Assembly (NCBI GenBank): GCA_947453205.1
Contig: CANGFT010000009.1
Span: 1-64,000 of the forward strand
DNA: 64,000 nt
Origin: Beijerinckiaceae bacterium
GTDB lineage: Bacteria; Pseudomonadota; Alphaproteobacteria; Rhizobiales; Beijerinckiaceae
Direction: 5' to 3'
Part shown: one piece after another, positions 18,158 to 33,182 of the stretch
Layout of the letters: each line of letters opens with the position of its first letter
Numbering within the stretch: position 1 is the first letter of the stretch
Notes under the pieces: model-generated
What the model was told of the DNA's origin: nothing
Databases searched by the model: none
What the model saw: the letters and a program-made list of their open reading frames with translations, nothing else
Translations under genes and position numbers: made by a program

Positions 18158-20671
18158 ATGGTTGACTATAATTGGGGCGGCATCACCGATGATTTCTCGG
18201 CGGTGACATTGAACAAGCTTCAATTAGAAGGTGCAGGATACTTCACCTTGGGGACTTTCGATCCACTCAGTGGAGATTTAGCAACCTGCTTCACGCGCTC
18301 CGGCCAATTTTCAATCGACGCCAACGGCGGCATCATCTCAGCGGAAGGCTGCTTCCTATTGGGCTTCGGGCCCTATGAAACCTCTTATGACCTTGCCAAC
18401 CTAAGTCCTCTCGCAGTCAAAGCTCAACGCTCTTACGGCGCCATCGTCGTAGACTTGCCGCAGGGGTCTGTAGAGGGATCCGTAGTCTATCTTGAATGGC
18501 CTATCAATGGTTGGGATCCATTGACCCATGTCGTGACGTTTGACGACATAACTAACGGGTCCGTGACCTTTAACGGCTACTCATTTCTTTCTGCAGAGGT
18601 TGCGGCTCTTCTCACGCCTGTCTGCGCCTGGACGCAGGTCAGGGTTGATGTGCCAGGCTCCTACAGAGTCAATCAACTCGTGACGGTCGAGAATGGAACC
18701 GGCCAAACCTGGAGCAAAGCCATTGAGGCGAGTGATCTTGCACGCGGATTTTTGTCAATAGACCTGCCACTTCTAACCCCGGACGAAACAGACCTTTTGA
18801 TTGTCAAAACCACCGCTGGCGCGACATCGACCGTCATTGGAAGCACGCATATTTCATTTGTCGACAAAACCCAATCAACACCGTCTCAATTTGAGGATGT
18901 TCTGGGTGTTGGGATCATCATCAGCCTCGAAGGAAACGTCTGCGAAGTCTTTAGTGACGGAGAACAGGAACAGATCGGGACTGTGGCCCTGTCAAATTTC
19001 GCCAATGCGAATGAATTAAGCGTTGTTGGGGGCGGCGTGCTTGCGGCAACGGTTCAAAGCGGAGAGCCGATCATCGTCAATGTGGGCGATCCCATTGCCC
19101 AGAGCGTGGTCGTCGGGGTGATCGATCCCAACAACATTCAATTCAAATCCGCAGCGACAGCCAGCGTCGTAGAAAACATCACCCCTGCAACGCCTTTTTA
19201 CACGGCGATTGCGACCGACCCCAAGTCCAACGCGTCGTTGACCTATTCCATCTCGGGTGGGACGGACGCCGATCTTTTCAACATCAACGCGATGACAGGC
19301 GCAATCACCTTCAAGGCGCCGCCTAATTTCGAGGCCCCCGCCGATTTTGGCGGCGACAATGTCTATGACATAAGGGTTCACGCAGAAGATGGCGCTCTTG
19401 CTGCGGACAGAGCGCTCGCCATCACCGTGACCAACATCAACGAAGCGCCCATCATCAATTCAGCCGCGACATCGACGACGCCCGAAGGCGTCAACAATGC
19501 TACGGCCGTCTATATCGTCACCGCGACAGACCAGGACACAAACGCCATCCTGACCTATGCGATTCAGGGCGGCGCCGATGCGAATTTATTTAAAATCGAC
19601 GCCTTGACTGGCGCAGTCACTTTCAAGGCCTCACCGGATTTTGAGGCTCCCGCCGATTCCGGAGCGGACAACGTCTACGACATCATTGTTCAGGTTTCAG
19701 ATGGCGCGTTAAGCGCGACCAAGAATGTGGCGGTCACAGTGACCGACGTTTTTGAAGGCGGCTCCACAGTGAGGGACTTCAACGCCGACGGCAGGAGCGA
19801 TGTCCTGCTCCAGAACGTCAACGATGGCGCATGCTACACCTGGGAACTCAATGGAACTTCCCTCCTAACCCACGGCTATGCGGGTTGGGCGCCGGGCGCA
19901 TCCTGGCAGGCGAAAGGGACGGGCGACTTCAATGGCGACGGCAAGAGCGATGTCTTGCTCCAGAACGCCAGCGATGGCTCTTGCTATATCTGGGAACTCA
20001 ATGGAACCTCTCTTGTGGGCAATGGCTATGCGGGTTGGGCGCCAGGCGCATCCTGGCAGGCGAAAGGGACGGGCGACTTCAATGGCGATGGCAAGAGCGA
20101 TGTCTTGCTCCAGAACGCCAACGATGGCTCATGCTATATCTGGGAGCTCAATGGAACCTCTCTTGTGGGCAACGGCTATGCGGGCTGGGCGCCCGGCTCC
20201 GCATGGCAGGCAAAGGGGACCGGCGACTTCAACGGCGATGGCAAGAGCGATGTCTTGCTCCAGAACGCCAACGACGGCTCTTGCTATATCTGGGAGTTGA
20301 ATGGCACGACGCTCGTGGGCAATGGCTATGCGGGCTGGACGCCCGGCTCCGCATGGCAGGCAAAGGGGACCGGCGACTTCAACGGCGATGGCAAGAGCGA
20401 TATCTTGCTCCAGAACGCCAACGACGGCTCATGCTATATTTGGGAGCTCAATGGAACCTCTCTCGTGGGCAACGGCTATGTGGGCTGGGCGCCTGGCTCC
20501 GCATGGCAGGCCAAGGGAACGGGCGACTTCAACGGCGATGGCAAGAGCGATGTCTTGCTCCAGAACGCCAATGACGGCACATGCTATATCTGGGAGCTGA
20601 ACGGAACAACGCTCGTGGGAAATGGCTATGCGGGCTGGACGCCGGGCGCAGATTGGCATGCAGTCGCATGA
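18158..20671 (+). CDS. Surface protein: flagellar-hook-like segments + cadherin-like domains + VCBS repeats
   Basis: The 837-residue protein has four parts. Residues about 18-90 (LEGAGYFTLG, TRSGQFSIDANGGIISAEGC) resemble the beta region of flagellar hook/rod proteins FlgE/FlgF. Residues about 90-240 form an unassigned beta-rich insert. Residues about 245-310 (EDVLGVG, GTVALSNFANANELSVVGGG) resemble the C-terminal hook region. Two cadherin-like domains follow (about 325-430 and 430-535, each ending ITVTNINEAP or VTVTDVFEGG), then six 50-residue repeats with the calcium-binding-like DFNGDGKSD motif of VCBS/FG-GAP proteins. No Sec signal peptide or canonical hook N-terminus is visible, so export is unclear. 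GGAG precedes the ATG. It is probably a secreted, calcium-binding adhesin-like protein. Confidence 0.8.
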   Translation: MVDYNWGGITDDFSAVTLNKLQLEGAGYFTLGTFDPLSGDLATCFTRSGQFSIDANGGIISAEGCFLLGFGPYETSYDLANLSPLAVKAQRSYGAIVVDLPQGSVEGSVVYLEWPINGWDPLTHVVTFDDITNGSVTFNGYSFLSAEVAALLTPVCAWTQVRVDVPGSYRVNQLVTVENGTGQTWSKAIEASDLARGFLSIDLPLLTPDETDLLIVKTTAGATSTVIGSTHISFVDKTQSTPSQFEDVLGVGIIISLEGNVCEVFSDGEQEQIGTVALSNFANANELSVVGGGVLAATVQSGEPIIVNVGDPIAQSVVVGVIDPNNIQFKSAATASVVENITPATPFYTAIATDPKSNASLTYSISGGTDADLFNINAMTGAITFKAPPNFEAPADFGGDNVYDIRVHAEDGALAADRALAITVTNINEAPIINSAATSTTPEGVNNATAVYIVTATDQDTNAILTYAIQGGADANLFKIDALTGAVTFKASPDFEAPADSGADNVYDIIVQVSDGALSATKNVAVTVTDVFEGGSTVRDFNADGRSDVLLQNVNDGACYTWELNGTSLLTHGYAGWAPGASWQAKGTGDFNGDGKSDVLLQNASDGSCYIWELNGTSLVGNGYAGWAPGASWQAKGTGDFNGDGKSDVLLQNANDGSCYIWELNGTSLVGNGYAGWAPGSAWQAKGTGDFNGDGKSDVLLQNANDGSCYIWELNGTTLVGNGYAGWTPGSAWQAKGTGDFNGDGKSDILLQNANDGSCYIWELNGTSLVGNGYVGWAPGSAWQAKGTGDFNGDGKSDVLLQNANDGTCYIWELNGTTLVGNGYAGWTPGADWHAVA
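19771..20668 (+). repeat. Six tandem 150-bp repeats inside the surface-protein gene
   Basis: Units begin at 19771, 19921, 20071, 20221, 20371 and 20521, exactly 150 bases apart, each coding for 50 residues around DFNGDGKSDVLLQN and CYIWELNG. The first unit (DFNADGRSD) is the most diverged. Units 2-6 are nearly identical in DNA, with neighbours differing at only a few positions, which indicates recent duplication or gene conversion. Confidence 0.95.
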
Positions 20672-20980: not shown

Positions 20981-21337
20981 ATGATCGCTCGTCTGGTGAT
21001 TTTCACCCTTGCATTTGTCGTGGCCAGCGCCGCTCAATCGCAGCAACCAGCCCCTCCGCAGCTTGACCCCAATCAGACCCAGGGGCGCGCGCTATTCAGT
21101 AAATCCTGCACGATTTGCCATCTCCCCCCACAATTGGGGGCAGGAACCTTTGGGCCTCAATTGAGCCGAGCCACCCTTGATGGGAATGAATCGATCTTAC
21201 GTGACGTGATTTCGAACGGCATGCCGCATATGCCGGGTTTCAAACACATGTATCAGGCCGACCAGATCGATTCCATCGTCGCATACCTGAAGACTGTTCC
21301 TGCCCCGACGCCCATCGCGCCGACCCCTGCCCGCTAG
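20981..21337 (+). CDS. Small periplasmic cytochrome c
   Basis: The 118-residue product has a signal peptide (LVIFTLAFVVASAAQSQ, cut near residue 20) and one haem-c motif, CTICH at residues 43-47. Possible axial Met residues lie in NGMPHMPGF. It ends with a Pro/Thr-rich tail. The class I pattern implies a single-haem electron carrier in the periplasm. GGGGAGG stands at ideal distance from the ATG. It leads the operon with the two propeller-cytochrome fusions (gap 22 bases), so it probably accepts electrons from one of them. Confidence 0.92.
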   Translation: MIARLVIFTLAFVVASAAQSQQPAPPQLDPNQTQGRALFSKSCTICHLPPQLGAGTFGPQLSRATLDGNESILRDVISNGMPHMPGFKHMYQADQIDSIVAYLKTVPAPTPIAPTPAR

Positions 21338-21359
21338 ATTGGACCGATAGGAGATCGCC

Positions 21360-23186
21360 ATGAAAAATATGCATCTGCTTCTGGCCGCAGGACTTCTGAC
21401 GTTGACGCCTGTCCGGTCAGCCAGCGCCGCCGACATTATATTGTCCGGGGCGGTGAAGGCCGCAACGGGCGAAAGGCTTGGCGGGGTCGCCGTAGCCGCA
21501 AAGCGAGACGGATCGACCATCACGACCACGGTCTACACCGACGCTGAGGGCGCCTATTACTTTCCGCCCCTGCCGGACGGAAAATATAAAGTTTGGGCAA
21601 ACGCGCTTGGTTTTGAACATGTGAGGGGCGATGTCGACCTCGCCGCCGTCAAAAAGTTCGACGTCACATTGAAGCCTATCACGGATTATGAAACACGCTG
21701 GCGCCAATTGCCTGGCGATGAAATGCTGGCCGCCCTGCCGGACTCCACGCCCCATGATGCGAATATGAAGGGTGTGCTCCATAATAATTGCACGGGGTGC
21801 CATACGCCCAGCTACATTCTCCAGAACAAGTTCGACGAAGAGGGTTGGTTCAAGATCATTGATCTCATGAAGCGTCTGCCCGGAACCGGCGTATATAGCG
21901 AGAAGAACCCCGTCAACGCCGTCATGGATTTCAATCAGAAGGCCTTGGCCGCCTATCTCGCGAAGGTGCGCGGGCCTGATGCAAAGCCCCTGACGATCCG
22001 TGACCGGGCCCGACCTTCCGGGGAAGCCGCGAGGGTCGTCTGGCGCGAATACGACATGCCCGTCAATCCAGACTCCGGCCTTGGCCTTTGGACGATGACC
22101 GAAGATGGAAGTGACTGGACCAAGGGCACGCCATCCAAGAACGTCATGATGCATGACGCCTGGTTCGACCTCGATGGCCACATGTGGTTCACGAGCAACA
22201 ATCCCAACAAGCATGTCTCCATTGGACGGGTGGACCGCAAAACCGGCGACGTCAAATTTCTCAAACTGATGGCCAAAAACGGCCTTTCCTCCAACTCCCA
22301 CGGCTTGGCGCGGGATGCGAAGGGTTATCTGTGGTTCGACATCAACACGGGGCGCCGCAGCCTCGGGCGGCTTGATCCGAAGACGCAGGAGATCAAGGTT
22401 TTCGTCACGCCTGACAATATGTCGCCTTTGGGCGGGGCGGTGACCATTGACGTCGACGGCAAGCAAAAGATCTGGGCCTCCGCTCCAGACGGGGCCCTGC
22501 GCTTTGATCCGGACACCGAGAAGTTCACAGAATTCAAATCCCCGACCTTCAAGACCGCCAATGGTCTGGCCACCACTTACGGCGTCGCCGCCGACAGATA
22601 TGGCAATGGCTGGTGGGCTCAGATGCCGATCGACGTCATAGGGAAGGCGAATTTCGAAACCGGCAAGGTGGAGGCGATCGCCTTGCCCGAGGTGACGGGC
22701 GTCAGGCAACGCCAGTCGCCGGAGGCCTTGAAAGCTTATGAACATAATGAACTAGGCTTCAACTATCCCTACCCCTGGCAACAGGGGCCGCGCCGCATGG
22801 GTGTCGACAAGAATGGCGATACGCTCTGGATCGGCAATTCCTGGGGCGGATCTTTGACAAAGATCGACGTCAAAACCGGCGAAATGTCTATGATCCCCAT
22901 GGCTGACCCGAAGAACGATCAGCCCTACCACATACATGTCGACAGCAAGCACAACGCCTGGGGCAACCTATGGGGTTCGGATCACCTCTTCCGCTATGAT
23001 CCGGCACAGGGACGCTATACACATTTTGAAATTCCAAGGCGTGGAACAGAAGTCCGTTTCATCTCTCTGGATGAAACCCGCGGTGAGCTGGAAGTTCTGA
23101 TTCCCATCTATCGAACCGGTCAATTGGGGGTCATGACCCTGCGCAGCGAAGCTGATCTGGCTGCGGCGAAGCGGGCGGTTCAGTGA
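21360..23186 (+). CDS. Periplasmic fusion: carboxypeptidase-regulatory-like domain, haem-c motif, Vgb-like propeller
   Basis: The 608-residue secreted protein starts with a signal peptide (LLLAAGLLTLTPVRSASA). A CarboxypepD-regulatory-like beta-sandwich follows (about 25-105: LGGVAVAAKRDGSTITTT, YYFPPLPDGKYKV). The haem-c motif CTGCH is at residues 144-148. From about 230 to the end it has repeated WFDLDGHMWFTS, YLWFD and LWIGNSWGG-type blades, the pattern of virginiamycin B lyase-like propellers. Family members outside Vgb itself have mostly unknown functions. The mixture of a redox cofactor with a propeller suggests an oxidoreductase or a redox-sensing binder. It follows the small cytochrome c by 22 bases. 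Confidence 0.85.
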   Translation: MKNMHLLLAAGLLTLTPVRSASAADIILSGAVKAATGERLGGVAVAAKRDGSTITTTVYTDAEGAYYFPPLPDGKYKVWANALGFEHVRGDVDLAAVKKFDVTLKPITDYETRWRQLPGDEMLAALPDSTPHDANMKGVLHNNCTGCHTPSYILQNKFDEEGWFKIIDLMKRLPGTGVYSEKNPVNAVMDFNQKALAAYLAKVRGPDAKPLTIRDRARPSGEAARVVWREYDMPVNPDSGLGLWTMTEDGSDWTKGTPSKNVMMHDAWFDLDGHMWFTSNNPNKHVSIGRVDRKTGDVKFLKLMAKNGLSSNSHGLARDAKGYLWFDINTGRRSLGRLDPKTQEIKVFVTPDNMSPLGGAVTIDVDGKQKIWASAPDGALRFDPDTEKFTEFKSPTFKTANGLATTYGVAADRYGNGWWAQMPIDVIGKANFETGKVEAIALPEVTGVRQRQSPEALKAYEHNELGFNYPYPWQQGPRRMGVDKNGDTLWIGNSWGGSLTKIDVKTGEMSMIPMADPKNDQPYHIHVDSKHNAWGNLWGSDHLFRYDPAQGRYTHFEIPRRGTEVRFISLDETRGELEVLIPIYRTGQLGVMTLRSEADLAAAKRAVQ

Positions 23187-23360
23187 TCTACGGCAAGGCG
23201 CGGAACAGCAAACCATAAGGCATGCTGTCCCAAGCCATTGCGGTGACGGTCACCGCTTGGGGCGAGGTTGTCAGCGCAATAGAAGGCGTCCGCGCGCCAG
23301 CGTGAATCGTGCATGGGCTTTTATGGCGCCAATTTTTCTAGAGATCGGTCAGGGGGAACT

Positions 23361-24956
23361 ATGCGAATGAGATCAAAACTCCTGGCCGCCATGGCCTTTG
23401 GCTCCTCCCTCGCAAGCCCCGCTTGCGCCGCCACCATAACCGGGACGGTGACCGGCCCTGATGGAAAGCCCCAAATGGGCGTCTTTGTCGTCGCCGAGGA
23501 TGTGAAGACAAAGCGGACCGTCAGTGTGCTCTCGAATGAGCGCGGACGCTATCATATCGGCGCTTTGCCTGCGGCGAGTTACAATATCAAGGTCAAAGCG
23601 ATTGGGTTGAAAGCCGACGTCCAGCGGGATGTGGCGATAGCCCTCGATCAGAAAATGTCCTTCGATTTCGCCGTGCAGCGGCGTCCCGTCGAATGGAGCG
23701 AGCTCTCCACCTATCAAGGCCGGAAACTCCTGCCGAAAACCGCCGAGCATGATCTCAGCCACAAGGATACGTTCTTCTCCACCTGTTTCCAATCCTGTCA
23801 TTCCTTCCAGAATCGCATGGCGGTCGGCGTGCGTGACTACGATGGATGGTTCGACCGGGTGAAATACATGAGCGATACGGTGATGGCGGGCGAGGGACGT
23901 CGCATCACACCCAAGGAGATGGAGGATTTCGCCAGATATCTCACGGTCATTTTCGGACCGGACTCACCCAAGCCTGAGTCTCCCGAGACGATGCCAGAAT
24001 ATAAGCCTCTCGTGCGCAGCTTCAGCCCCAAGGCGATGAACATCGCTTATGTGGAATATGACATGCCCGCGCCTCTGGGCATGGGCCCGTGGAGCGGCGT
24101 GGAAGACCGCGACGCCAAGATCTGGATCCCCTATTACGGTCGGGGCAATGAAGTCATCCGGCTCGATCCCGATACTGCTGAAATGACGCATTTCAAACTG
24201 CCCTTCGCCCGGACAGCCGGCATTCACTCAGTGATCCCTTCAGCGGATGGAACCGTCTGGTTCGTGGAGACGGCGCTCGGCCGGATCGCGCAGTTGGACC
24301 CGGCCACAAAGGAGATCAAGGAATTCCAGGCGCCGACTCTGCCCGATGGCAAGAAGGCTGGCGCTCATACGATCCGCGTTGACGAACGGGGTCTGGTGTG
24401 GACCAGCGGCGGGCCCGTGATCTCCATGTATGATCCCAAGACGCAGGCCTTCAGACATTACGATGTGCCGGCGACCTACGCCAATACGGTCGGGCGGAAT
24501 GGCGATCAATGGTTCACCTCTTTCCGGGCTGATGGCGTGATCGCGCGAATCTCAAGAGACGGCGTGCTGTCGAAGTTCCAGCCCCCGACGGCTGGCAAGC
24601 CACAGCGCCTCGAGCTTGATCCGGACGGCAATGTCTGGTTCAGCGAGCGGCAAGGCAACAAGATCGGAAAGTTCGATCCGAAGACCGAGACCTTCAGGGA
24701 ATATCCACTCCCAGGACCGGAAGCGAGCCCCTATGCAGTGGGCATCGATAGAGATCGCATGGTCTGGTACTCCTCACACGAACAAGACACGATGAACCGA
24801 CTGAACCCTGAAACGGGCGAAGTGACCGAATATCCCTACCCGCATCCGGAAATCTCCATGCGCGAATTCTTCCTCGATAAGAAAGGGCGCATGTGGTACG
24901 CAAGCTCCGCAAATAACAAGGTTGGCTACTTCTATTACAATGATGAAGCCAAATAG
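23361..24956 (+). CDS. Paralogous periplasmic fusion with an unusual CxxxCH motif
   Basis: The 531-residue protein repeats the architecture of its upstream neighbour: signal peptide (LLAAMAFGSSLASPACA), CarboxypepD-regulatory-like domain (about 23-105, GKPQMGVFVVAED), then a long Vgb-like propeller with repeated KIWIPYYG, TVWFVET, NVWFSER and MVWYSSH blades. At the place where the other two have CxxCH it reads CFQSCH (residues 142-147), with three residues between the cysteines. ATG 23361 follows AGGGGGA; the longer reading from 23313 lacks such support. The spacing to the previous gene is 174 bases, so it may have its own promoter or be read through. Confidence 0.85.
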   Translation: MRMRSKLLAAMAFGSSLASPACAATITGTVTGPDGKPQMGVFVVAEDVKTKRTVSVLSNERGRYHIGALPAASYNIKVKAIGLKADVQRDVAIALDQKMSFDFAVQRRPVEWSELSTYQGRKLLPKTAEHDLSHKDTFFSTCFQSCHSFQNRMAVGVRDYDGWFDRVKYMSDTVMAGEGRRITPKEMEDFARYLTVIFGPDSPKPESPETMPEYKPLVRSFSPKAMNIAYVEYDMPAPLGMGPWSGVEDRDAKIWIPYYGRGNEVIRLDPDTAEMTHFKLPFARTAGIHSVIPSADGTVWFVETALGRIAQLDPATKEIKEFQAPTLPDGKKAGAHTIRVDERGLVWTSGGPVISMYDPKTQAFRHYDVPATYANTVGRNGDQWFTSFRADGVIARISRDGVLSKFQPPTAGKPQRLELDPDGNVWFSERQGNKIGKFDPKTETFREYPLPGPEASPYAVGIDRDRMVWYSSHEQDTMNRLNPETGEVTEYPYPHPEISMREFFLDKKGRMWYASSANNKVGYFYYNDEAK

Positions 24957-24977
24957 GGGCTGAGCCGTCTGGCTTGC

Positions 24978-25010
24978 GGCGCCCTGCGCTCAACCGAACA
25001 GCGAGGCGCC
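24978..25010. terminator. Hairpin between converging genes
   Basis: GGCGCC at 24978-24983 and 25005-25010 can pair, extended with a bulge by GCGCT and AGCG inside the arms; TTT follows on the plus strand. It lies between the stops of the propeller fusion (plus) and the NMT1-type binding protein (minus), where a bidirectional terminator is expected. Confidence 0.4.
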
Positions 25011-25025
25011 TTTGGAGTTAAGCCA

Positions 25026-26036
25026 TCACCGCCCCGTGGGCGCGAGACCCGCCTTTAGATATTGAAGGTCCACAAAGGTCTCCGCCGGCGGGACCGGTTG
25101 CGTGACGACGCCTCCATCCTGCAAAAAACGAATGACCTGCTCCATGCCCCTGAGATTGATCTCCCCTTCGAAAGGAAGAACATTTTTCTCCGGGTTGAAA
25201 AAGAGGTCGAGCGTGGAAAGCGCCGTATCTTCCGATGAGCCCCACCATTCCTTCATCAGGATGGCGATTCGGCCGCGATTTTGGGGATTGCGGATGAACT
25301 GGAAAGAATCACGCATGGCCCGGACATAGCGGGTCAGCGCCTCCTTATGGTTGACAGCCCAGGATCTGCGTGCGGCTGTGACCGTGTAGACAAAATCCGG
25401 CACCGCTTCATTGGTGGCTCCCAGCAGACGAAACCCCTGCCGCAGCGCATGGAAATCTTGTGGTTGCCCCAGTGGAACCGCATCACAATCGCCTCGCATC
25501 AAGCATTGAAAACGCCCCGGCGTCCCCTCGATGACGTTGATGTCAATGTCGCTTTGCGTGACGCCATGTTTCTCAAACAGGGCCATGGTCGCCAGAGACA
25601 CCGATCCGCTCATGTCCGCCATGCCGATGCGACGCCCTTTTAATTCCGCAATGGATTTATACCAGGGCTTGGCGATGAGGCTGTAAATGGGGTTGTTGAA
25701 CTCCGCGATGATGGCGACCGTGTCTGATCCACGCAGGGCGGCCGTGATGAGAAAGGATGTCGCGACATGCGCCACATCAGCTTTGTCTTCCTCGAGCGCG
25801 ATGAGGCTGGATTCCGCGCCTCCCTCAATTTGCACCATTGAAAATTTCAGCCCGTTCGCCGTGTAGAAACCTTCTTTGTCCGCAATGCGCATCGGCAGTG
25901 AAAAGACGCTGCGCCAGGTTGAGGCAGTCTGCGCGTAACGCAGCTCCAGAACCTCTTGCGCCTCGCAAGCGGATGATGAAAAAACGGATAAGATGAAAAA
26001 AAGAGCCGTCGCGCTCCGTCTTGCTGCACGAACCAT
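25026..26036 (-). CDS. NMT1/SsuA-type periplasmic substrate-binding protein
   Basis: The 336-residue protein has a signal peptide (ALFFILSVFSSSACEA) and the fold pattern of ABC binding proteins of the SsuA/TauA/NMT1 group: an early LRYAQTASTWRSVFSLPMRI and DKEGFYTANGLKF, then ELKGRRIGMADMSG. They bind small organic molecules such as sulfonates, nitrate-like ions or pyrimidine precursors; the ligand here cannot be read from sequence. A Cys lies at the signal end (SSSACEA), so it could instead be a lipoprotein. No permease or ATPase is next to it; it ends the minus-strand operon that contains the third propeller fusion. Confidence 0.85.
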   Translation of the reverse strand: MVRAARRSATALFFILSVFSSSACEAQEVLELRYAQTASTWRSVFSLPMRIADKEGFYTANGLKFSMVQIEGGAESSLIALEEDKADVAHVATSFLITAALRGSDTVAIIAEFNNPIYSLIAKPWYKSIAELKGRRIGMADMSGSVSLATMALFEKHGVTQSDIDINVIEGTPGRFQCLMRGDCDAVPLGQPQDFHALRQGFRLLGATNEAVPDFVYTVTAARRSWAVNHKEALTRYVRAMRDSFQFIRNPQNRGRIAILMKEWWGSSEDTALSTLDLFFNPEKNVLPFEGEINLRGMEQVIRFLQDGGVVTQPVPPAETFVDLQYLKAGLAPTGR

Positions 26037-26043
26037 GGCTTAG

Positions 26044-26454
26044 CTATCGCGCTTTTTCAAGGAGACAGATGACTTCAATGGGGGAGCGAGGATCTGGTCC
26101 TGTAGGTTGGCGACTTATGGCGTAGGCCTTGTATCCATCCATGCTGCAGGTGATTTCGATGTCATCCGGGTTGATGTCCTTATCAAAGCCCTTGATGGTG
26201 AAATGCCCTTGGTCATCAGCCCGGATGAAGACGGTCGAGTTATAGGCGGTGACAGAAATGGAGACTTTCGCATCTGCGATGGGCTGCCCATTCCTGTCTT
26301 TGACATCGCCGATGAACGGGGGGCCGGATTCGTCGTCATGATCGTCAGCATCATCGAAAGAACCGCCGCCAGCGTGTGCGACCGAATAGTGGAGCGCATT
26401 GAGCCCAGGCGCCAGAATGGACAGCAGGGCGATCCGAATAAACAAGCCACGCAT
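26044..26454 (-). CDS. Small secreted protein with a carboxypeptidase-regulatory-like domain
   Basis: The 136-residue product has a signal-like hydrophobic start (IRIALLSILAPGLNA) and then an acidic linker (DDADDHDDESG). A single CarboxypepD-regulatory-like domain follows (FIGDVKDRNGQPIADAKVSI with a GHFTIKGFDKD hairpin). It resembles the N-terminal domains of the propeller fusions nearby but has no haem motif or propeller. It may bind to the same target or partner. The gene sits 32 bases after the membrane protein gene and 7 bases before the NMT1-type gene in one transcript. Starts at 26466 or 26454 are both possible; GGA precedes the latter. Confidence 0.65.
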   Translation of the reverse strand: MRGLFIRIALLSILAPGLNALHYSVAHAGGGSFDDADDHDDESGPPFIGDVKDRNGQPIADAKVSISVTAYNSTVFIRADDQGHFTIKGFDKDINPDDIEITCSMDGYKAYAISRQPTGPDPRSPIEVICLLEKAR

Positions 26455-26486
26455 GTCAGGTTCCATTCATTGGCGTTGACGACCTT

Positions 26487-26825
26487 TTATTTTATTCCGA
26501 ACCAGGTGCGTTCAATATACAAAAGAAAGGCGGTGAGGAGGACTGGCACAACCCAAACCCACCCTGTCCAGACCTTTTTGCCGACGTCCTGGGGAACGAA
26601 GAGGGCGACGAGTCCGCCGCCAAGACCGGCCAGGAACGCCGTCGTCAGCCAACTGAACCAAAACATCCCGGGGCCACCCCGCCCCAGATCCGGCACTCCC
26701 ATATGCCAATCGCCTGATCTCGGCGCAAAGGTGAATATGGTGAGGTTTGGGTGCAGGAACATCGAGGCCAGATAGACGATCATGAAGATGACCGAAAAGG
26801 CCGGGCAGGCGCGGGACAAGTTCAT
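26487..26825 (-). CDS. Small membrane protein of unknown function
   Basis: The 112-residue protein has about three hydrophobic helices: FSVIFMIVYLASMFL, FWFSWLTTAFLAGLGGG and VWVVPVLLTAFLLYI. A Gly/Pro-rich loop (GVPDLGRGGPGM) joins the first two. The start MNLSRACPAF is preceded by GGGGAG, and the start codon lies just downstream of the previous gene's stop at 26827. I recognise no family. It and the larger membrane protein upstream form a pair inside the propeller-cytochrome operon, so both may be part of a membrane redox module. Confidence 0.6.
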   Translation of the reverse strand: MNLSRACPAFSVIFMIVYLASMFLHPNLTIFTFAPRSGDWHMGVPDLGRGGPGMFWFSWLTTAFLAGLGGGLVALFVPQDVGKKVWTGWVWVVPVLLTAFLLYIERTWFGIK

Positions 26826-26826
26826 C

Positions 26827-27285
26827 TCACACTCCCCTGATGTTATTGAGGACATGTCCGACCATGAAGCCTGCCCAGATGAAAAGAGTCATTAAAAGAA
26901 CAATGATTTTCCGGGTCCACTGATGGTCGGGATCAAGCGGTTGGCGCCAGAAATACCAATAGGCCGGCAGAAGGCCGAGCGCGAAACTGACAAGATGCTC
27001 CTTCACCTCAAATGAGCCGACTGCCGCGCTCATCCGCAGGTTTTCCATGAAAACCCGTGCGCCGATGCGGTAGGAGGGGTAAACGACTGCGCCCAAGGCG
27101 AAGGTCAACAGAAACAGGATGATGATCGCATTGGTGTAGCTGGCCGCCTTCACAGCTCGGAAACGACCAAGGAAATTCGGCTCTGACGCCTTGTAAGGCC
27201 ACCAGACCGCCACCGCCTGATGGGTGACCGCGCCCAATAGCGCGATGGCGAAGAGGCCGTGCATGACAAAGAGGAACGTCATCAT
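26827..27285 (-). CDS. Membrane protein with paired His, possible haem-b carrier
   Basis: The 152-residue product has four hydrophobic helices. Helix 1 carries His9 and His22, 13 residues apart; further His lie at 97 (VKEHLVSF), 121 and 144 (FMVGHVLNN). Two His spaced about 13 on one helix, matched by His on others, is the geometry of di-haem b proteins, but I cannot assign it to a known cytochrome b family. It ends one base before the next membrane protein's start. A role in passing electrons between the quinone pool and the periplasmic cytochromes is an inference from position. Confidence 0.6.
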   Translation of the reverse strand: MMTFLFVMHGLFAIALLGAVTHQAVAVWWPYKASEPNFLGRFRAVKAASYTNAIIILFLLTFALGAVVYPSYRIGARVFMENLRMSAAVGSFEVKEHLVSFALGLLPAYWYFWRQPLDPDHQWTRKIIVLLMTLFIWAGFMVGHVLNNIRGV

Positions 27286-27375
27286 AGGCTTGGATTCCGA
27301 CTTGAAGTCTTCTGCTCAAGGATGCTGCGCATGCGTTCGATGCCGCGCTTCGGGTCGTCGCCAGCGCAAGGATGG

Positions 27376-29037
27376 TCAATCAAGAGGTTCAAGTTTCACG
27401 ATGGAGGCGCCGTGGTTGGACCCAACCCATAGCGCCTGCTTTTCCCCGGCCTCCTGCACGAAGACGCGCCGGATGTTGGTGTTGCGTGGCAACAGATAAT
27501 CCACGACCTCACCTGACTTTGTGTCGAGGCGGCTCACATGATCTGTGAGCATGGAACCAGTCCAGGCCTCGGCGCCTCCCTTGCTGGCGACGACATCATA
27601 GGGTTGGCTCCAGGGGATCGGCAGTTGCCACTCCTTGATCGATTTGGACTTTGGATCGAACATGCCGATGCCATTGCCGCCATATTCGGCGAACCATAGA
27701 CGACCCTCGGCATCCACCCGTCCGCGGCGCGGCCGTGAGCCGACGAAGGGCGTGGTGAAGACATCCGCCACTTTCTTCTCGGGGTCGAACCAACCAATTC
27801 GCGTCCCTGAAAACTCAAGCAGGAATGGTCGATTCTTCAGATCAGTCGGCATGCCATAACCGGGGATCGGCTTGCCTGATGCGTCCTTGGTCTCACCCAT
27901 TTGTTCATAGACGCCGGTCCTCGGATCAAGGCGCAGCAGGGAATGATCTTGCTGGTCATTCGTCCAGACGTAACCATCGACATCTGAATGTTGTGGCGAA
28001 ACCATGGATTCCTGGGTGCTGGGCGTTTGCCATTGATCGGGGATCTTATAGGCGTGCACCTTGTTCGATGCGCGCTCCCACCGATAGACTCCCCCCTGAT
28101 ACATCCCGGACACCCAGATGTCGCCATTTGGCGCCTCACCAATTTCAAGGCCTCCCTTGGGCGAACCATCTGTCTTCATCATCGGGAGCGCGATGGAGGC
28201 GACCTTCCCTGTGACTGGATCCATTCGGCCCATGAATTGATCGCCGAAATCGGAGAACCAGACCTCTCCCTGCTTGTCGACGATGACGTCATGGGGCTGC
28301 CAATCCTTGCGGGGCAGATCATATTCGGTGATGACGACCTTGGTGGCGCGGCCCTTCGGTCGGGGCAATGTCTTCAATTCAAAGCTGCGGGTCGGGGACT
28401 GGCTAAGATTGGCGTTTGCAAGGACCTCGGCGGCTCTCGGGGCTGTCGCCGCGTTCACGCGCGGACGCTCTCCCCTTGGCCCAGGCAGGAGGGGTTGCGG
28501 CTTGGTGGGCATCGAACCAGGCGAGTAGAGGCCCATCCTTTTAAAAATATCCAGAAATTCGGAGGCCTCATAGGTTGTGTTCAAGACTTTCGAAATCGTA
28601 TGGCAGCCCGAACAATCGTCCATGAAACGCTTGTCGCGATCAGGCGCGGGGATCGACATGATCCACTCCGCATTGGACAACTGAGACGCCAGGTTCCGTG
28701 TTTTTGAAAGCTTCAGATCCGCCTTGCCCTCGGAGCCAGGTTCGATTGTGATTTCCTTCGGTCCGTCCAGCACATAACCGATCGCACGGATGCTCAAGGC
28801 GTATTTTCCTGCGTCAAGCCGGTCGGGCGGAAAAGAAAAACGCCCCTGTGCATCGGTGACGACTGTGACGGAGATCGTTGATCCCGCCTTCTTCGCGGTG
28901 ACGAGAACACCCTCCATCGTCGGCTCCGCCGTTGAGGTGACAATCCCCGAAAGGCCATTCGCCAACGCCCCGGTGCTGACCAGAACGACCGCAGACATAC
29001 CCGCAGCAATCTTCAACCATGATTTTCCAGTTGGCAT
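27376..29037 (-). CDS. Third propeller-cytochrome fusion
   Basis: The 553-residue secreted protein has the architecture of the two plus-strand fusions: signal peptide (AAGMSAVVLVSTGALA), CarboxypepD-regulatory-like domain (about 28-110, MEGVLVTAKKAGSTISVT), a haem-c motif CSGCH at residues 142-146, and a Vgb-like propeller (EVWFSDFGDQ, DIWVSGMYQGG, RLWFAEYGGNG). Between haem and propeller lies a Pro-rich linker (about 170-215). It heads a minus-strand operon that continues with two membrane proteins, the small regulatory-like protein and the NMT1-type binding protein. The gap of 90 bases to the next gene allows a second start. Confidence 0.85.
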   Translation of the reverse strand: MPTGKSWLKIAAGMSAVVLVSTGALANGLSGIVTSTAEPTMEGVLVTAKKAGSTISVTVVTDAQGRFSFPPDRLDAGKYALSIRAIGYVLDGPKEITIEPGSEGKADLKLSKTRNLASQLSNAEWIMSIPAPDRDKRFMDDCSGCHTISKVLNTTYEASEFLDIFKRMGLYSPGSMPTKPQPLLPGPRGERPRVNAATAPRAAEVLANANLSQSPTRSFELKTLPRPKGRATKVVITEYDLPRKDWQPHDVIVDKQGEVWFSDFGDQFMGRMDPVTGKVASIALPMMKTDGSPKGGLEIGEAPNGDIWVSGMYQGGVYRWERASNKVHAYKIPDQWQTPSTQESMVSPQHSDVDGYVWTNDQQDHSLLRLDPRTGVYEQMGETKDASGKPIPGYGMPTDLKNRPFLLEFSGTRIGWFDPEKKVADVFTTPFVGSRPRRGRVDAEGRLWFAEYGGNGIGMFDPKSKSIKEWQLPIPWSQPYDVVASKGGAEAWTGSMLTDHVSRLDTKSGEVVDYLLPRNTNIRRVFVQEAGEKQALWVGSNHGASIVKLEPLD

Positions 29038-29442: not shown

Positions 29443-30318
29443 TCAGCGGGGCGGCCGAACGCCCCAGATGACCGTGCCATTGTCCTTCCGGTCCCAGGTC
29501 TTCGGCCGCTGGGGAAAGTCCCTGTGCCAGGGCTTGGGATCAAAATAGCCAAGCTCTTCATTGGACATCCGATCCATCTCAACAAAGAATTCCATGGTGA
29601 GGCCATCGGGCGTCAGATGGTAGACAGCGATGTTGTGGCCCGGACCATGCCGCAGAGGACCGCGCGCAATCGTGATGCGATGGCGGCCAAGCGTGTCGCA
29701 GGCCGCCTGCAGATGGGCGAAATCCTTTAACTCGAAAGCGAAATGCGCAAGCTCCTCCCGCTCGCCCTTCACGAAGTTCAGGGTGTGATGATCGGGATTG
29801 CAGCGTTGAAAGACAAATATGTCCTGTATCCAGTCGGAAACGCGGAACCCGAGCGACCGTGTGAAGAAATCGGCGGTCTTTTGCGGACTGGTGACGCAGA
29901 AGGCGACATGGCCGAGCTTTATTGGCGCCGCCCCGATGGCGTCCTGGTTGGATGAAACAAAGCGGCCGCCCATGAACAGATCGATTTCAGCGCCCTTGTC
30001 ATCCCGGAAGGTGATGACATCGGTCACACCGGGAAAAGGCTCACGAGATCGATGTGGCGCAAGGCCCAGACGTTCGAGATCCCTCATGATGTCCAATGGA
30101 TCGAGATGCGGCGCGACCTCCAGCGCAATGCGGCTGCAGGCAGCTCTGTCACTCACCCGCAACTCGACCGCAAGCTGGCCAAGTGGTGTGGCGAAAAAAG
30201 CCTGCTTTGGCGTCCGCTCGACCAATATCAGCCCAACGACATTCCTGTAATAATCAAGCTGCCGCTCGATGTCTGGCGTCTCAAGCGTGAGATGTCCGAT
30301 GCGGATCGCTTGAACCAT
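29443..30318 (-). CDS. Extradiol ring-cleavage dioxygenase-like (VOC) protein
   Basis: The 291-residue protein consists of two vicinal-oxygen-chelate domains, as in type I extradiol dioxygenases that open catechol rings. The second domain keeps the probable Fe ligands: His in KLGHVAFCVT near residue 136, His in ELAHFAFEL near 192 and Glu in TMEFFVEMD near 245. HTLNF and DGLTMEF fit the catechol 2,3-dioxygenase signature. It probably acts in the cytosol on a ring-hydroxylated aromatic. The gene lies 29 bases downstream of a TctC-type binding protein, so both are likely read together. Confidence 0.8.
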   Translation of the reverse strand: MVQAIRIGHLTLETPDIERQLDYYRNVVGLILVERTPKQAFFATPLGQLAVELRVSDRAACSRIALEVAPHLDPLDIMRDLERLGLAPHRSREPFPGVTDVITFRDDKGAEIDLFMGGRFVSSNQDAIGAAPIKLGHVAFCVTSPQKTADFFTRSLGFRVSDWIQDIFVFQRCNPDHHTLNFVKGEREELAHFAFELKDFAHLQAACDTLGRHRITIARGPLRHGPGHNIAVYHLTPDGLTMEFFVEMDRMSNEELGYFDPKPWHRDFPQRPKTWDRKDNGTVIWGVRPPR

Positions 30319-30347: not shown

Positions 30348-31385
30348 TCAGTTAAGAACTTTCTTGAGGCGCTCGATGACCAACGCCGGGGTCTGATAAA
30401 TTTCTTCCATCACTCTTTGCGCTTCTTCGCCACCGGTGGGGCTAGGCTCTTCGCCGCTGGATTTAATGACCTCATCACGGAAAGCGCCATCGGCTGTCAT
30501 GCGCGCAAAGGCGGCCCTCAACTCGTCAACCCTCGCCGATGGCGTTTTGGGCGGCGCAAAGACCGGTTTGTTCAGCATCAAAGGCGCGAAGAGAAGACGC
30601 AGCATCTGTTTCGCCTCTGTGGTTTCAGCAAGATCGATGGCGAGGGGAATGTCGGGGAGTTCAGGGTTCTTCGACAAGCCAAACTGCATGAGGATGGTGA
30701 GCTTCTTTTCCTTGATCCAGGTGGCGCTTGTGCTCTTGAGGCTCGTCCATCCCCAGCCGCAGCGGCCGTCGACTTCCCCGCGCTCGATCGCCAAAGACGA
30801 TTCCTGACTGCCCTGAAATCCCGTTATCACGCGAAACCGGGTGCCCAGAAGGTCGTTCATCACGACGGGATAAAGGTCCGTCGAGGAGCCCGCCCCGGTG
30901 CCAGCGACAATCATCTCCGCTCGACGCACATCTTCAAGGGACTTGAACCTCGTAGCGTGCCATGCGGCGCAGATGGAGGACTCGCGCGATATCGCGCCAA
31001 GCACCGGAAAGTCCACCATTCGATAGCTCGTCTTGCGGGCGCCGATCAAGGGCTCAAGAATAGGCCCTGGCGGCAGAATGATGAGGCTCGTGCCATCTTG
31101 CGGCGCTGTGGACGACATGAACTCGACAGCGCGGATTCCGCCTGCTCCCGGCATCAGTTGACCGATCATGGCGGGCTGACCAGGAATGAACCGTGCCAGG
31201 TGTCTCGCAACGATGCGCGCGGAAAGATCGAGGCCCCCGCCAGCGGTCCCTGCAATGATCAGGCTAATCGTCTTGCCCTGATAAAAAGGCCGCTCTTGCA
31301 GCGCCCCTTGCGCCGCCGCTTGTGCGGGCGACGCCAACACGACGAGGATCGAAAAGAGCCATCGCAGGCGCATTTTCTGTGGCAT
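30348..31385 (-). CDS. TctC/Bug-type substrate-binding protein
   Basis: The 345-residue protein has a signal peptide (WLFSILVVLASPAQAAAQG) and the Bug-family pattern FYQGKTISLIIAGTAGGGLD, ARHLARFIPGQP, MPGAGGIRA and a C-terminal region of the TctC fold. Such proteins bind carboxylated ligands for tripartite tricarboxylate transporters. No membrane components adjoin; the nearest tctAB set lies at 32.7 kb, read the other way. GGAG lies nine bases before ATG 31385, which is preferred over the longer N-terminal reading from 31481. Confidence 0.9.
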   Translation of the reverse strand: MPQKMRLRWLFSILVVLASPAQAAAQGALQERPFYQGKTISLIIAGTAGGGLDLSARIVARHLARFIPGQPAMIGQLMPGAGGIRAVEFMSSTAPQDGTSLIILPPGPILEPLIGARKTSYRMVDFPVLGAISRESSICAAWHATRFKSLEDVRRAEMIVAGTGAGSSTDLYPVVMNDLLGTRFRVITGFQGSQESSLAIERGEVDGRCGWGWTSLKSTSATWIKEKKLTILMQFGLSKNPELPDIPLAIDLAETTEAKQMLRLLFAPLMLNKPVFAPPKTPSARVDELRAAFARMTADGAFRDEVIKSSGEEPSPTGGEEAQRVMEEIYQTPALVIERLKKVLN

Positions 31386-31740
31386 GGCGGCGGCTCCACT
31401 GCGGGCGGGCGAAAGCGTCATGCGATGCGTTCCTCCGCTTGCTCCCGCACCCCTGCTTTTGGGTTTGGAGGCGAATCGCACTGGACTCTTTGATTCTGTG
31501 CGGAATCCGCTGTGAGTTCAATGCGGCGCCTCCGCCTGTGCGCGGGATGGCGACGCGATCAGTCTTGCATGGTCCCGGCCGAGCCACAACGCAGCGACGG
31601 GTCAAGCCTCGCGGCCGAGATGTAGACCATTTCCTACGGGTGACCTTCCCGCCCGTGATCGAAGTTGAAGCAGAGGGTCGGTTCGGCTAAGAGCTTCCTC
31701 GTCCCCGCCGGTCATGCGACGGGGCTGGGAGAAGACCGCG
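31386..31740. other. Divergent intergenic region
   Basis: About 355 bases between two TctC-type genes read away from each other. It should hold both promoters. I see no obvious operator palindrome and no gene. Confidence 0.45.
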
Positions 31741-32706
31741 ATGCGTTTGCAAACTTTCTTTCGCCCTGTTCTGGGAGCCCTCGCCTGTCTGACCCTGGCG
31801 CAATCCGCCCATGGGCAGACGGCGCCGAAATATCCGAAAGAGACCGTCATCCTCGCCACCCATTCGAGCCCGGGCGGCGGCAGCGATGTCTTCCTGCGGG
31901 AAATGGCGCCCCATCTCACGCGCGCCATGGGCGTCAATTTCGCCGTCGAGAACATCTCCGGCGGTTCGGGCGCCAAAGCCATGGCGGTGCTGGCCAAGGC
32001 CAAGCCGGATGGCGGCATGTTCTACGCGACGACGCCCACGTTCATCTACACTTCTTTGATGAGCAAGGTGGAGACAAGCTATCGCGACCTCGAACCTCTG
32101 GTGAACGTCTTCTATGATCCGGAAGTCGTCTACACGGCGGCCGAAAGCAAATTCCAGTCCTTGAAAGACGTGATCGACAACGCCCGCGCCAATCGCGGCA
32201 AGTGGGGCGCCGCCAATCCCGCTTCGCTGGAGCGTCAGGTGCTGGAACGGATGAAGACCGTGACAGGCGTGCGCGCCGCCGTCGTCACCTTTGAAGGCGG
32301 CGGCGACATGCAGATCAATGTGCTCAACCGCACGCTTGACATCGGCATTGGGGAGCTTGGGGAGATCAAGCCGCAACTGGAGGCGGGCAAACTGCGTGTT
32401 CTCGCGATCATGGGGGACGCCCGCATCGAGCAGATGCCGGATGTTCCGACCGCGCGGGAACAGGGCGTCGATGTGTCCGTGCGCAAGTTCCGTGGCCTTG
32501 CCGCACCCAAAGGCACGCCGCCTGAGATTGTGGCGGCTTGGGAAGCGGGGATCCAGAGAGTGCTTGCTGATCCCGCCTACAAAAAAGTCTATGTCGAAAA
32601 CGGCCTGCAGCCGGCTTTCATCCCCCATAAGGACTACGGCCCCTTCATTGCGGAGTTCGCGCGTGACACGGAGGCTTTCCTGAAGGCTGCGAGCGTCATC
32701 AAGTGA
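31741..32706 (+). CDS. tctC: TctC-type tricarboxylate-binding protein
   Basis: The 321-residue periplasmic protein has a signal peptide (VLGALACLTLAQSAHG) and the TctC/Bug fold: ETVILATHSSPGGGSDVFL, NFAVENISGGSGAKAMA, then GDARIEQMPDVPTAREQG. It delivers a di- or tricarboxylate-like ligand to TctAB. GGGAGAAG precedes ATG 31741. It is the first gene of a five-gene operon: its stop overlaps the GTG start of tctB by four bases. The downstream MmgE/PrpD-like gene suggests the imported compound is a methylcitrate- or aconitate-like acid, but the ligand is not certain. Confidence 0.92.
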   Translation: MRLQTFFRPVLGALACLTLAQSAHGQTAPKYPKETVILATHSSPGGGSDVFLREMAPHLTRAMGVNFAVENISGGSGAKAMAVLAKAKPDGGMFYATTPTFIYTSLMSKVETSYRDLEPLVNVFYDPEVVYTAAESKFQSLKDVIDNARANRGKWGAANPASLERQVLERMKTVTGVRAAVVTFEGGGDMQINVLNRTLDIGIGELGEIKPQLEAGKLRVLAIMGDARIEQMPDVPTAREQGVDVSVRKFRGLAAPKGTPPEIVAAWEAGIQRVLADPAYKKVYVENGLQPAFIPHKDYGPFIAEFARDTEAFLKAASVIK

Positions 32707-33182
32707 ACCGCGATCTTGTGACGGCGTTGATCGGCATCACGCTCGCCGTCGGCTATCATATCGTCGCATCGAACATCGCTTCCGGACTTTTGGCTGACGA
32801 GGTCGGGCCAGACGGATTGCCACGCATTTATGCGTGGATGCTGGGTGGTCTTTCGACGCTCCTTGGGGTGCGGGCGCTGCTTCAGCAAAGGACGCAGCCC
32901 ACAGGCGACGAGGGCGAAGAGGGTCGTGCCGCATGGCGCGCTCTTGGTCTGCTGCTGATCGCTTGCGCCTATGTGGCCGCCGTTCCCGTCCTTGGCTACA
33001 CGCTGACCATCGCCGTCATCATCGCGGTGGCCGCCCTTTATCAGGGAGGCCGCCTCTCATGGTCTCTGGCGCTGACATCGGTGCTTGGCGCAGCCGCGCT
33101 CTGGTATGTATTCGTCTATCTTCTTCACATAGCGCAGCCAGAGGGCATGTTGCCTGATCTGATCGAGAGGTTGCGCGCATGA
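32703..33182 (+). CDS. tctB: TctB-type small transporter subunit
   Basis: The 159-residue membrane protein has four hydrophobic helices and a central acidic loop (GDEGEEG), the pattern of TctB, the small membrane subunit of tripartite tricarboxylate transporters. It begins at GTG within the tctC stop (GTGA) and ends within the tctA start (ATGA). Such 4-base overlaps imply translational coupling. Sequence conservation in TctB is low, so the assignment rests mainly on topology and position. Confidence 0.88.
   Translation: MNRDLVTALIGITLAVGYHIVASNIASGLLADEVGPDGLPRIYAWMLGGLSTLLGVRALLQQRTQPTGDEGEEGRAAWRALGLLLIACAYVAAVPVLGYTLTIAVIIAVAALYQGGRLSWSLALTSVLGAAALWYVFVYLLHIAQPEGMLPDLIERLRA

Follow-up and report, generated by a model that had tools for sequence, protein, structure and literature searches.

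Fusions of a haem c motif with a Vgb-type propeller as candidate periplasmic oxidoreductases, and a membrane triad found beside some of them, in a Beijerinckiaceae genus

A 64,000-nt stretch of contig CANGFT010000009.1 (here called the window), part of the 4.2-Mb draft genome of a Beijerinckiaceae bacterium, encodes three proteins in which a carboxypeptidase-regulatory-like domain, a haem c motif and a propeller of the virginiamycin B lyase (Vgb) type are fused. Comparisons across the genus revealed that these fusions belong to what is apparently a large undescribed family of haem-propeller proteins. Our preferred reading, to which we assign a probability of roughly 45%, is that they are modular periplasmic haem-propeller oxidoreductases. 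Their propeller fold, best known from an enzyme of antibiotic resistance, occurs here in proteins that carry a haem motif, keep a different pocket under strict conservation and are heavily duplicated.

Two gene runs converge in the window, with short gaps and one overlap: one on the forward strand (20981-24956) and the other on the reverse strand (29037-25026; Table 1). All nine genes named in an earlier note on this DNA open where that note had placed them, and its description of a cytochrome c, two membrane proteins, a regulatory-like domain and an NMT1-type protein within two converging runs agrees with gene positions and Pfam matches. The three-domain architecture that it gave to the fusions, here designated types A, B and C, was recovered by Pfam and motif reading alike, with CarboxypepD_reg and Vgb_lyase both above the Pfam cut-off in all three proteins. 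The structure model of the type C protein shows a beta-sandwich at about residues 29-112, helices around the haem motif at about 122-211 and propeller strands at 234-551.

Table 1. Features of the gene cluster in the window, and type D members at other loci; aa, amino acids
Feature	Position	Strand	Basis and remarks
Small secreted cytochrome c, CTICH, 118 aa	20981..21337	+	Pfam Cytochrome_CBB3, 44.4 bits
Type A fusion, CarboxypepD_reg - haem c (CTGCH) - Vgb-type propeller, 608 aa	21360..23186	+	Pfam
Type B fusion, irregular haem motif CFQSCH, 547 aa	23313..24956	+	Pfam
NMT1-type periplasmic binding protein	25026..26036	-	Pfam NMT1
Small secreted-looking CarboxypepD_reg-like protein, 140 aa, triad gene 3	26044..26466	-	Pfam, 33.2 bits (cut-off 32.3)
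Small membrane protein, 122 aa, triad gene 2	26487..26855	-	Without Pfam family; overlaps the 152-aa gene
Four-helix membrane protein, 152 aa, triad gene 1	26827..27285	-	Without Pfam family; predicted four-helix bundle
Type C fusion, CSGCH, 553 aa	27376..29037	-	Pfam; adjoins triad
Extradiol-like protein	29443-30318		Pfam Glyoxalase/dioxygenase superfamily match
Type D member	L065 4937-7060		
Type D member	L075 12021-14162		
Type D member	L079 11949-14090		
Type D member	L082 4691-6916		

A search profile built from 14 fusions gave 165 matches, a few of them partial, in 26 of the 51 genomes of the genus, with up to 17 per genome; 98 of these matches, from 85 of 88 loci, were read. Exactly one haem motif was present in every fusion read (93 CXXCH and 5 CX3CH), extending to the family what the earlier note had seen in the window. 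The two cysteines and the histidine of the motif, together with a methionine further downstream (Met168), were invariant in all 98, and the motif is therefore conserved beyond chance. Its form is regular in the type A (CTGCH) and type C (CSGCH) proteins of the window, but the middle fusion, type B, departs from the expected spacing with CFQSCH, a CX3CH motif shared by five of the six type B fusions, the sixth having CMACH. Judged from this conservation, the haem c would be liganded by His146 and probably by Met168.

In the propeller (553-aa numbering), Tyr394 and Arg438 were present in 98/98 fusions, Tyr480 and Arg523 in 97/98, and His249 in 92/98, with Trp at position 249 in type B; pocket and haem geometry were taken from the alignment, without model coordinates. 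At the positions of Vgb His228 and Glu268, which we take to be functional sites, the fusions carry Tyr (97/98) and either Asn (64/98) or Glu (26/98), respectively. The position of Vgb His270 is occupied by Arg in 97 fusions and by a gap in one, while an alternative alignment, shifted by one blade, places Tyr there. According to the title of PDB 2z2p, the H270A variant of Vgb is inactive. Because the catalytic His270 is replaced, we do not regard the fusions as antibiotic lyases, in line with what the earlier note suggested; given the haem motif, the different pocket and the heavy duplication, the label "virginiamycin B lyase" would mislead. Vgb (PDB 2z2n, 2z2p, 2qc5; Pfam PF24684) does share the propeller fold and is the best structural and sequence match, yet the fusions add the regulatory-like and haem domains to it, and with the haem motif kept in 98/98 and both histidine positions changed it is barely credible that they are streptogramin-lyase-type lyases or lactonases in which the haem motif is decorative.

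Further fusions are encoded at C7, C1, C34 and C76 of the same genome; the C7 fusion is 51% identical to the 608-aa type A protein and has a cytochrome c upstream there too. When 149 genomes were sampled from the family and 299 from the phylum, full-length three-domain matches were confined to the genus of the window, an absence elsewhere that is not firm because at most nine (family) and four (phylum) candidates per genome were scored and matches weaker than E 1e-40 were discarded. The matches in other genera spanned the propeller alone, or the haem region plus the propeller. Beyond the phylum the search covered a plasmid collection, which gave two partial type A matches and no match for the type C fusion or the 152-aa membrane protein. 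Signal-like starts, scored by a crude rule, were found in 76/98 fusions. A literature search, judged by titles and the openings of abstracts, returned no description of such fusions or of the gene set, consistent with the earlier note, whose author knew of no pathway with this set, and with subscription journals thinly covered this is weak evidence of novelty.

By best match, the fusions read comprise 26 of type A, 6 of type B and 66 of type C, and types A and B each form one clade of the fusion tree (support 1.0). In the gene calls, a small CXXCH protein was the next same-strand gene upstream of 20/26 type A fusions. When any same-strand frame of at least 70 aa with CXXCH within 900 bases upstream was counted, the pairing rose to 25/26 for type A, against 0/6 for type B and 4/66 for type C. 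The small cytochrome c proposed as a partner of the fusions is thus a partner of type A, but not of the other two types. Genes within three of a fusion (474) were also compared with 228 genes from 16 control stretches: the small cytochrome cluster accounted for 21 neighbour genes and no control gene (p = 2.3e-4), and neighbour counts are lower bounds, because the simple gene caller missed small genes, including five upstream cytochrome-like frames.

The neighbours of type C fusions are mixed, no single kind being significant by itself after correction, and include thiamine pyrophosphate enzymes and extradiol-like proteins. A flavin mononucleotide (FMN)-dependent dehydrogenase with a start resembling a twin-arginine translocation (Tat) signal lies directly upstream of a type C fusion at L011, L159 and L160, and other type C fusions adjoin a molybdenum hydroxylase pair (L012) or a VanA-type Rieske oxygenase (L150). 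Such redox-enzyme neighbours would fit fusions that act as electron-acceptor or docking subunits, in which a separate periplasmic dehydrogenase or oxygenase, encoded nearby, docks on the propeller, the haem passes electrons on and the propeller itself carries out no reaction. We regard this as somewhat unlikely, given that the partners vary, that many fusions lack one in their own gene run, and that the invariant residues correspond to catalytic-pocket positions of Vgb and not to a variable outer face. Aromatic-type neighbours were nominally enriched, with categories picked after the fact and no correction (Rieske 6 vs 0, extradiol-like 7 vs 0, Amidohydro_2 type 10 vs 0). The aromatic substrate at which the earlier note hinted is conjectural, as is its proposal that the membrane proteins carry electrons. 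NMT1-type proteins were not enriched near fusions (7/474 vs 3/228, p = 0.58), and tripartite-tricarboxylate-type binding proteins, labelled by eye, stood at 37/474 vs 9/228 (p = 0.03, uncorrected).

The triad next to the window's type C fusion, comprising the 152-aa and 122-aa membrane proteins and the small secreted domain, adds two membrane-protein families that match no Pfam model and that recur next to haem-propeller proteins. Neither window membrane protein matched Pfam up to E 0.1, and a Pfam home for the two families was rejected after scans of 17 and 12 of their members, run with E up to 10, gave scattered weak matches only. The 152-aa protein is predicted to form a four-helix bundle (predicted local distance difference test score 83); a profile search up to E 1 found no solved relative, and Foldseek with the model returned no match at or below 0.001. 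The VIA rows for this fold were generic four-helix bundles, including STEAP and designed dihaem bundles, and were not trusted. His9, His22, Tyr69, Arg73, Arg77, Glu81, Lys95 and Glu96 were conserved in 42/42 members and His144 in 39/42. A haem b held between His9 and His144 is possible, but the other three members carry Tyr at position 144. Mean loop charges in the family were +3.1 for loop 1, +1.7 for loop 3 and +0.9 for loop 2, with 0 and +1.0 at the ends; these values suggest that both ends and most of the conserved polar residues are periplasmic. In the small secreted CarboxypepD_reg-like protein, C107 and C134 were invariant in 15 aligned sequences.

The 152-aa protein was found in 37/51 genomes of the genus, in 6/149 of the family sample (from 2/43 genera), in 1/299 of the phylum sample, this being the window's own genome, and in 0/24 genomes from other families of the order. 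A scan of contigs gave seven loci with a relative of the 152-aa protein, all in metagenome-assembled genomes labelled Hyphomicrobiales-type. Among 42 triad loci (41 in the genus and one in another genus; the counts are descriptive, since some loci also fed the profiles), a relative of the 122-aa protein adjoins the 152-aa protein at 41, the remaining locus being cut by a contig end. At 35 loci the small secreted domain is no further than 6 kb away; of the seven loci without it, three are at contig ends. The membrane pair and the small regulatory-like domain named in the earlier note therefore form a real unit.

For the fusions as periplasmic oxidoreductases, we infer the following course. The fusion would be exported and its haem attached in the periplasm, where the N-terminal carboxypeptidase-regulatory-like domain may serve as a spacer or docking domain. 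The fixed central pocket of the Vgb fold (His249, Tyr394, Arg438, Tyr480, Arg523) most likely binds the same anionic ligand, or catalyses the same reaction, throughout the family, and the haem c would give or take single electrons. For type A, the small upstream cytochrome c would relay electrons onward, and at some loci the triad may be the membrane partner. A bolder version is unlikely: here the His/Tyr/Arg/Tyr/Arg pocket and the fused haem c would make one active site without an organic cofactor, present in up to 17 paralogues per genome, and constitute a new enzyme class partly coupled to a triad that exchanges electrons with the quinone pool. Were their chemistry redox, the fusions would give Hyphomicrobiales that are known chiefly through metagenomes a so far unrecognised way to oxidise organic acids.

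Several observations weigh against the fusions being oxidoreductases served in part by the triad. No Pfam or NCBIfam cytochrome model (up to E 0.1) matches the haem region of the three window fusions, and this region is modelled with modest confidence (blocks of 62-75 over residues 121-170, and below 50 in the loop 170-194). No metal or organic cofactor for redox chemistry was identified in the propeller. The neighbouring dehydrogenases vary by locus, none being individually significant against the control after correction. An Amidohydro_3-type protein, not obviously redox, lies within 6 kb at 24/42 triad loci, and most fusions have no triad nearby (6 triad loci against 165 fusion matches in the genus). 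It is also conceivable, if doubtful, that the fusions act as sensors or receptors for a ligand or for redox state, with a small molecule in the pocket, a haem that reports the redox state, and the triad or nearby signalling proteins as relay. As many as 17 paralogues in one genome would suit such a role, as would a GGDEF-EAL protein after one type A fusion (L152), whose cluster contributes three neighbour genes in all; signalling neighbours are few, however, no output domain was found by Pfam in the three window fusions, and the pairing with a small cytochrome c speaks rather for electron transfer.

Triad and fusions are associated beyond chance. A type C fusion lies within 6 kb at 6/42 triad loci. 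For the 27 triad loci of genomes that carry fusions, the expectation calculated from the number of fusions and the genome sizes is 0.62 such loci (p = 4.5e-5). Genomes with a fusion encode the 152-aa protein more often than those without (24/26 against 13/25; p = 0.0016, relatedness not corrected). The triad-adjacent type C fusions occupy two places in the tree, a clade of five (support 1.0) with four triad-linked members and a clade of two (window and L059), which implies two origins or two retentions of the adjacency. The single redox system of the earlier note would make one obligate complex or pathway of all three fusions, the small cytochrome c and the triad. In its favour, the adjacency exceeds chance and the full set also stands intact at L059, where the individual genes are 69-91% identical. 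That proposal is nevertheless very unlikely, as the whole set occurs at 2/42 triad loci (window and L059; some others are cut by contig ends), four of six type B fusions lie at loci elsewhere, and the triad is commoner with the amidohydrolase. The co-occurrence test set beforehand went the same way, with most fusions lacking the membrane genes, so that of the single redox system the pairings are supported but the unity is not. Because most fusions lack the triad, the triad's commoner partner is a different one and the whole set recurs only at L059, we read the window as an assembly of separable modules (cytochrome c with type A; type B; the membrane triad; type C) and not as one pathway.

Enzymes that combine a cytochrome c with a propeller include the quinohaemoprotein dehydrogenases and cytochrome cd1. 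Like these and hydrazine synthase, the fusions place a haem c beside a beta-propeller. In hydrazine synthase, however, the propeller of the alpha subunit is six-bladed and the haem sites are not those of the fusions (PMC12758564). Pyrroloquinoline quinone (PQQ) was considered as a cofactor and is unlikely in the fusions: pqqC was matched in 0/26 fusion-bearing genomes, the only two matches, below the cut-off, being in fusion-free genomes, in drafts that vary in completeness. With small class I c-type cytochromes (PF13442, PF00034), of which the 118-aa protein is a clear member, the fusions have in common CXXCH and a conserved downstream Met; unlike them, their haem region has no Pfam cytochrome match and 5/6 of type B carry CX3CH. 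A protein at C12 of the same genome has a haem motif and a Vgb propeller like the fusions, but no N-terminal CarboxypepD_reg was found in it.

Type D proteins, of about 700 aa and named "carboxypeptidase-like regulatory domain-containing protein", resemble the fusions in a regulatory-like start followed by a haem motif (CVGCH) and differ in their C-terminal part, which had no Pfam match in four members scanned. They occur in 46/51 genomes of the genus, with 1-5 matches each, and a relative in Microvirga (Microvirga ossetica WP_099514940.1) is 65% identical. Within 6 kb of the triad, type D was found at 9/42 loci and the NMT1 protein at 5/42.

The extradiol dioxygenase-like neighbour reported in the earlier note does carry a Pfam Glyoxalase/dioxygenase domain, but it falls far under the cut-offs of four NCBIfam dioxygenase models, the best being HpaD (101.5 bits against a cut-off of 321.4). 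Tripartite-tricarboxylate-type binding proteins, by the same by-eye label, also occur at 30348-33182 of the window. Directly upstream of the cluster (18158-20671), an 837-aa protein has near-identical C-terminal repeats (GDFNGDGKSDVLLQN...). Anti-phage defence was rejected, with zero PADLOC matches among six proteins. Beside the triad-fusion locus L063 (7773-11125) lie two glutathione transferase-like proteins, a dienelactone hydrolase and an arylmalonate decarboxylase-like protein, and a set resembling these recurs, by eye, at L021. A 78-82-aa protein with one hydrophobic stretch and no Pfam match lies upstream of type C fusions (L136 8020-8268, L138 5901-6137), its cluster accounting for 5/474 neighbour and 0/228 control genes. 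At L012 (8792-9112), a type C fusion is directly followed by a 106-aa protein with a Tat-like start and no Pfam match, in which the cysteine spacing is, by eye, that of a high-potential iron-sulphur protein.

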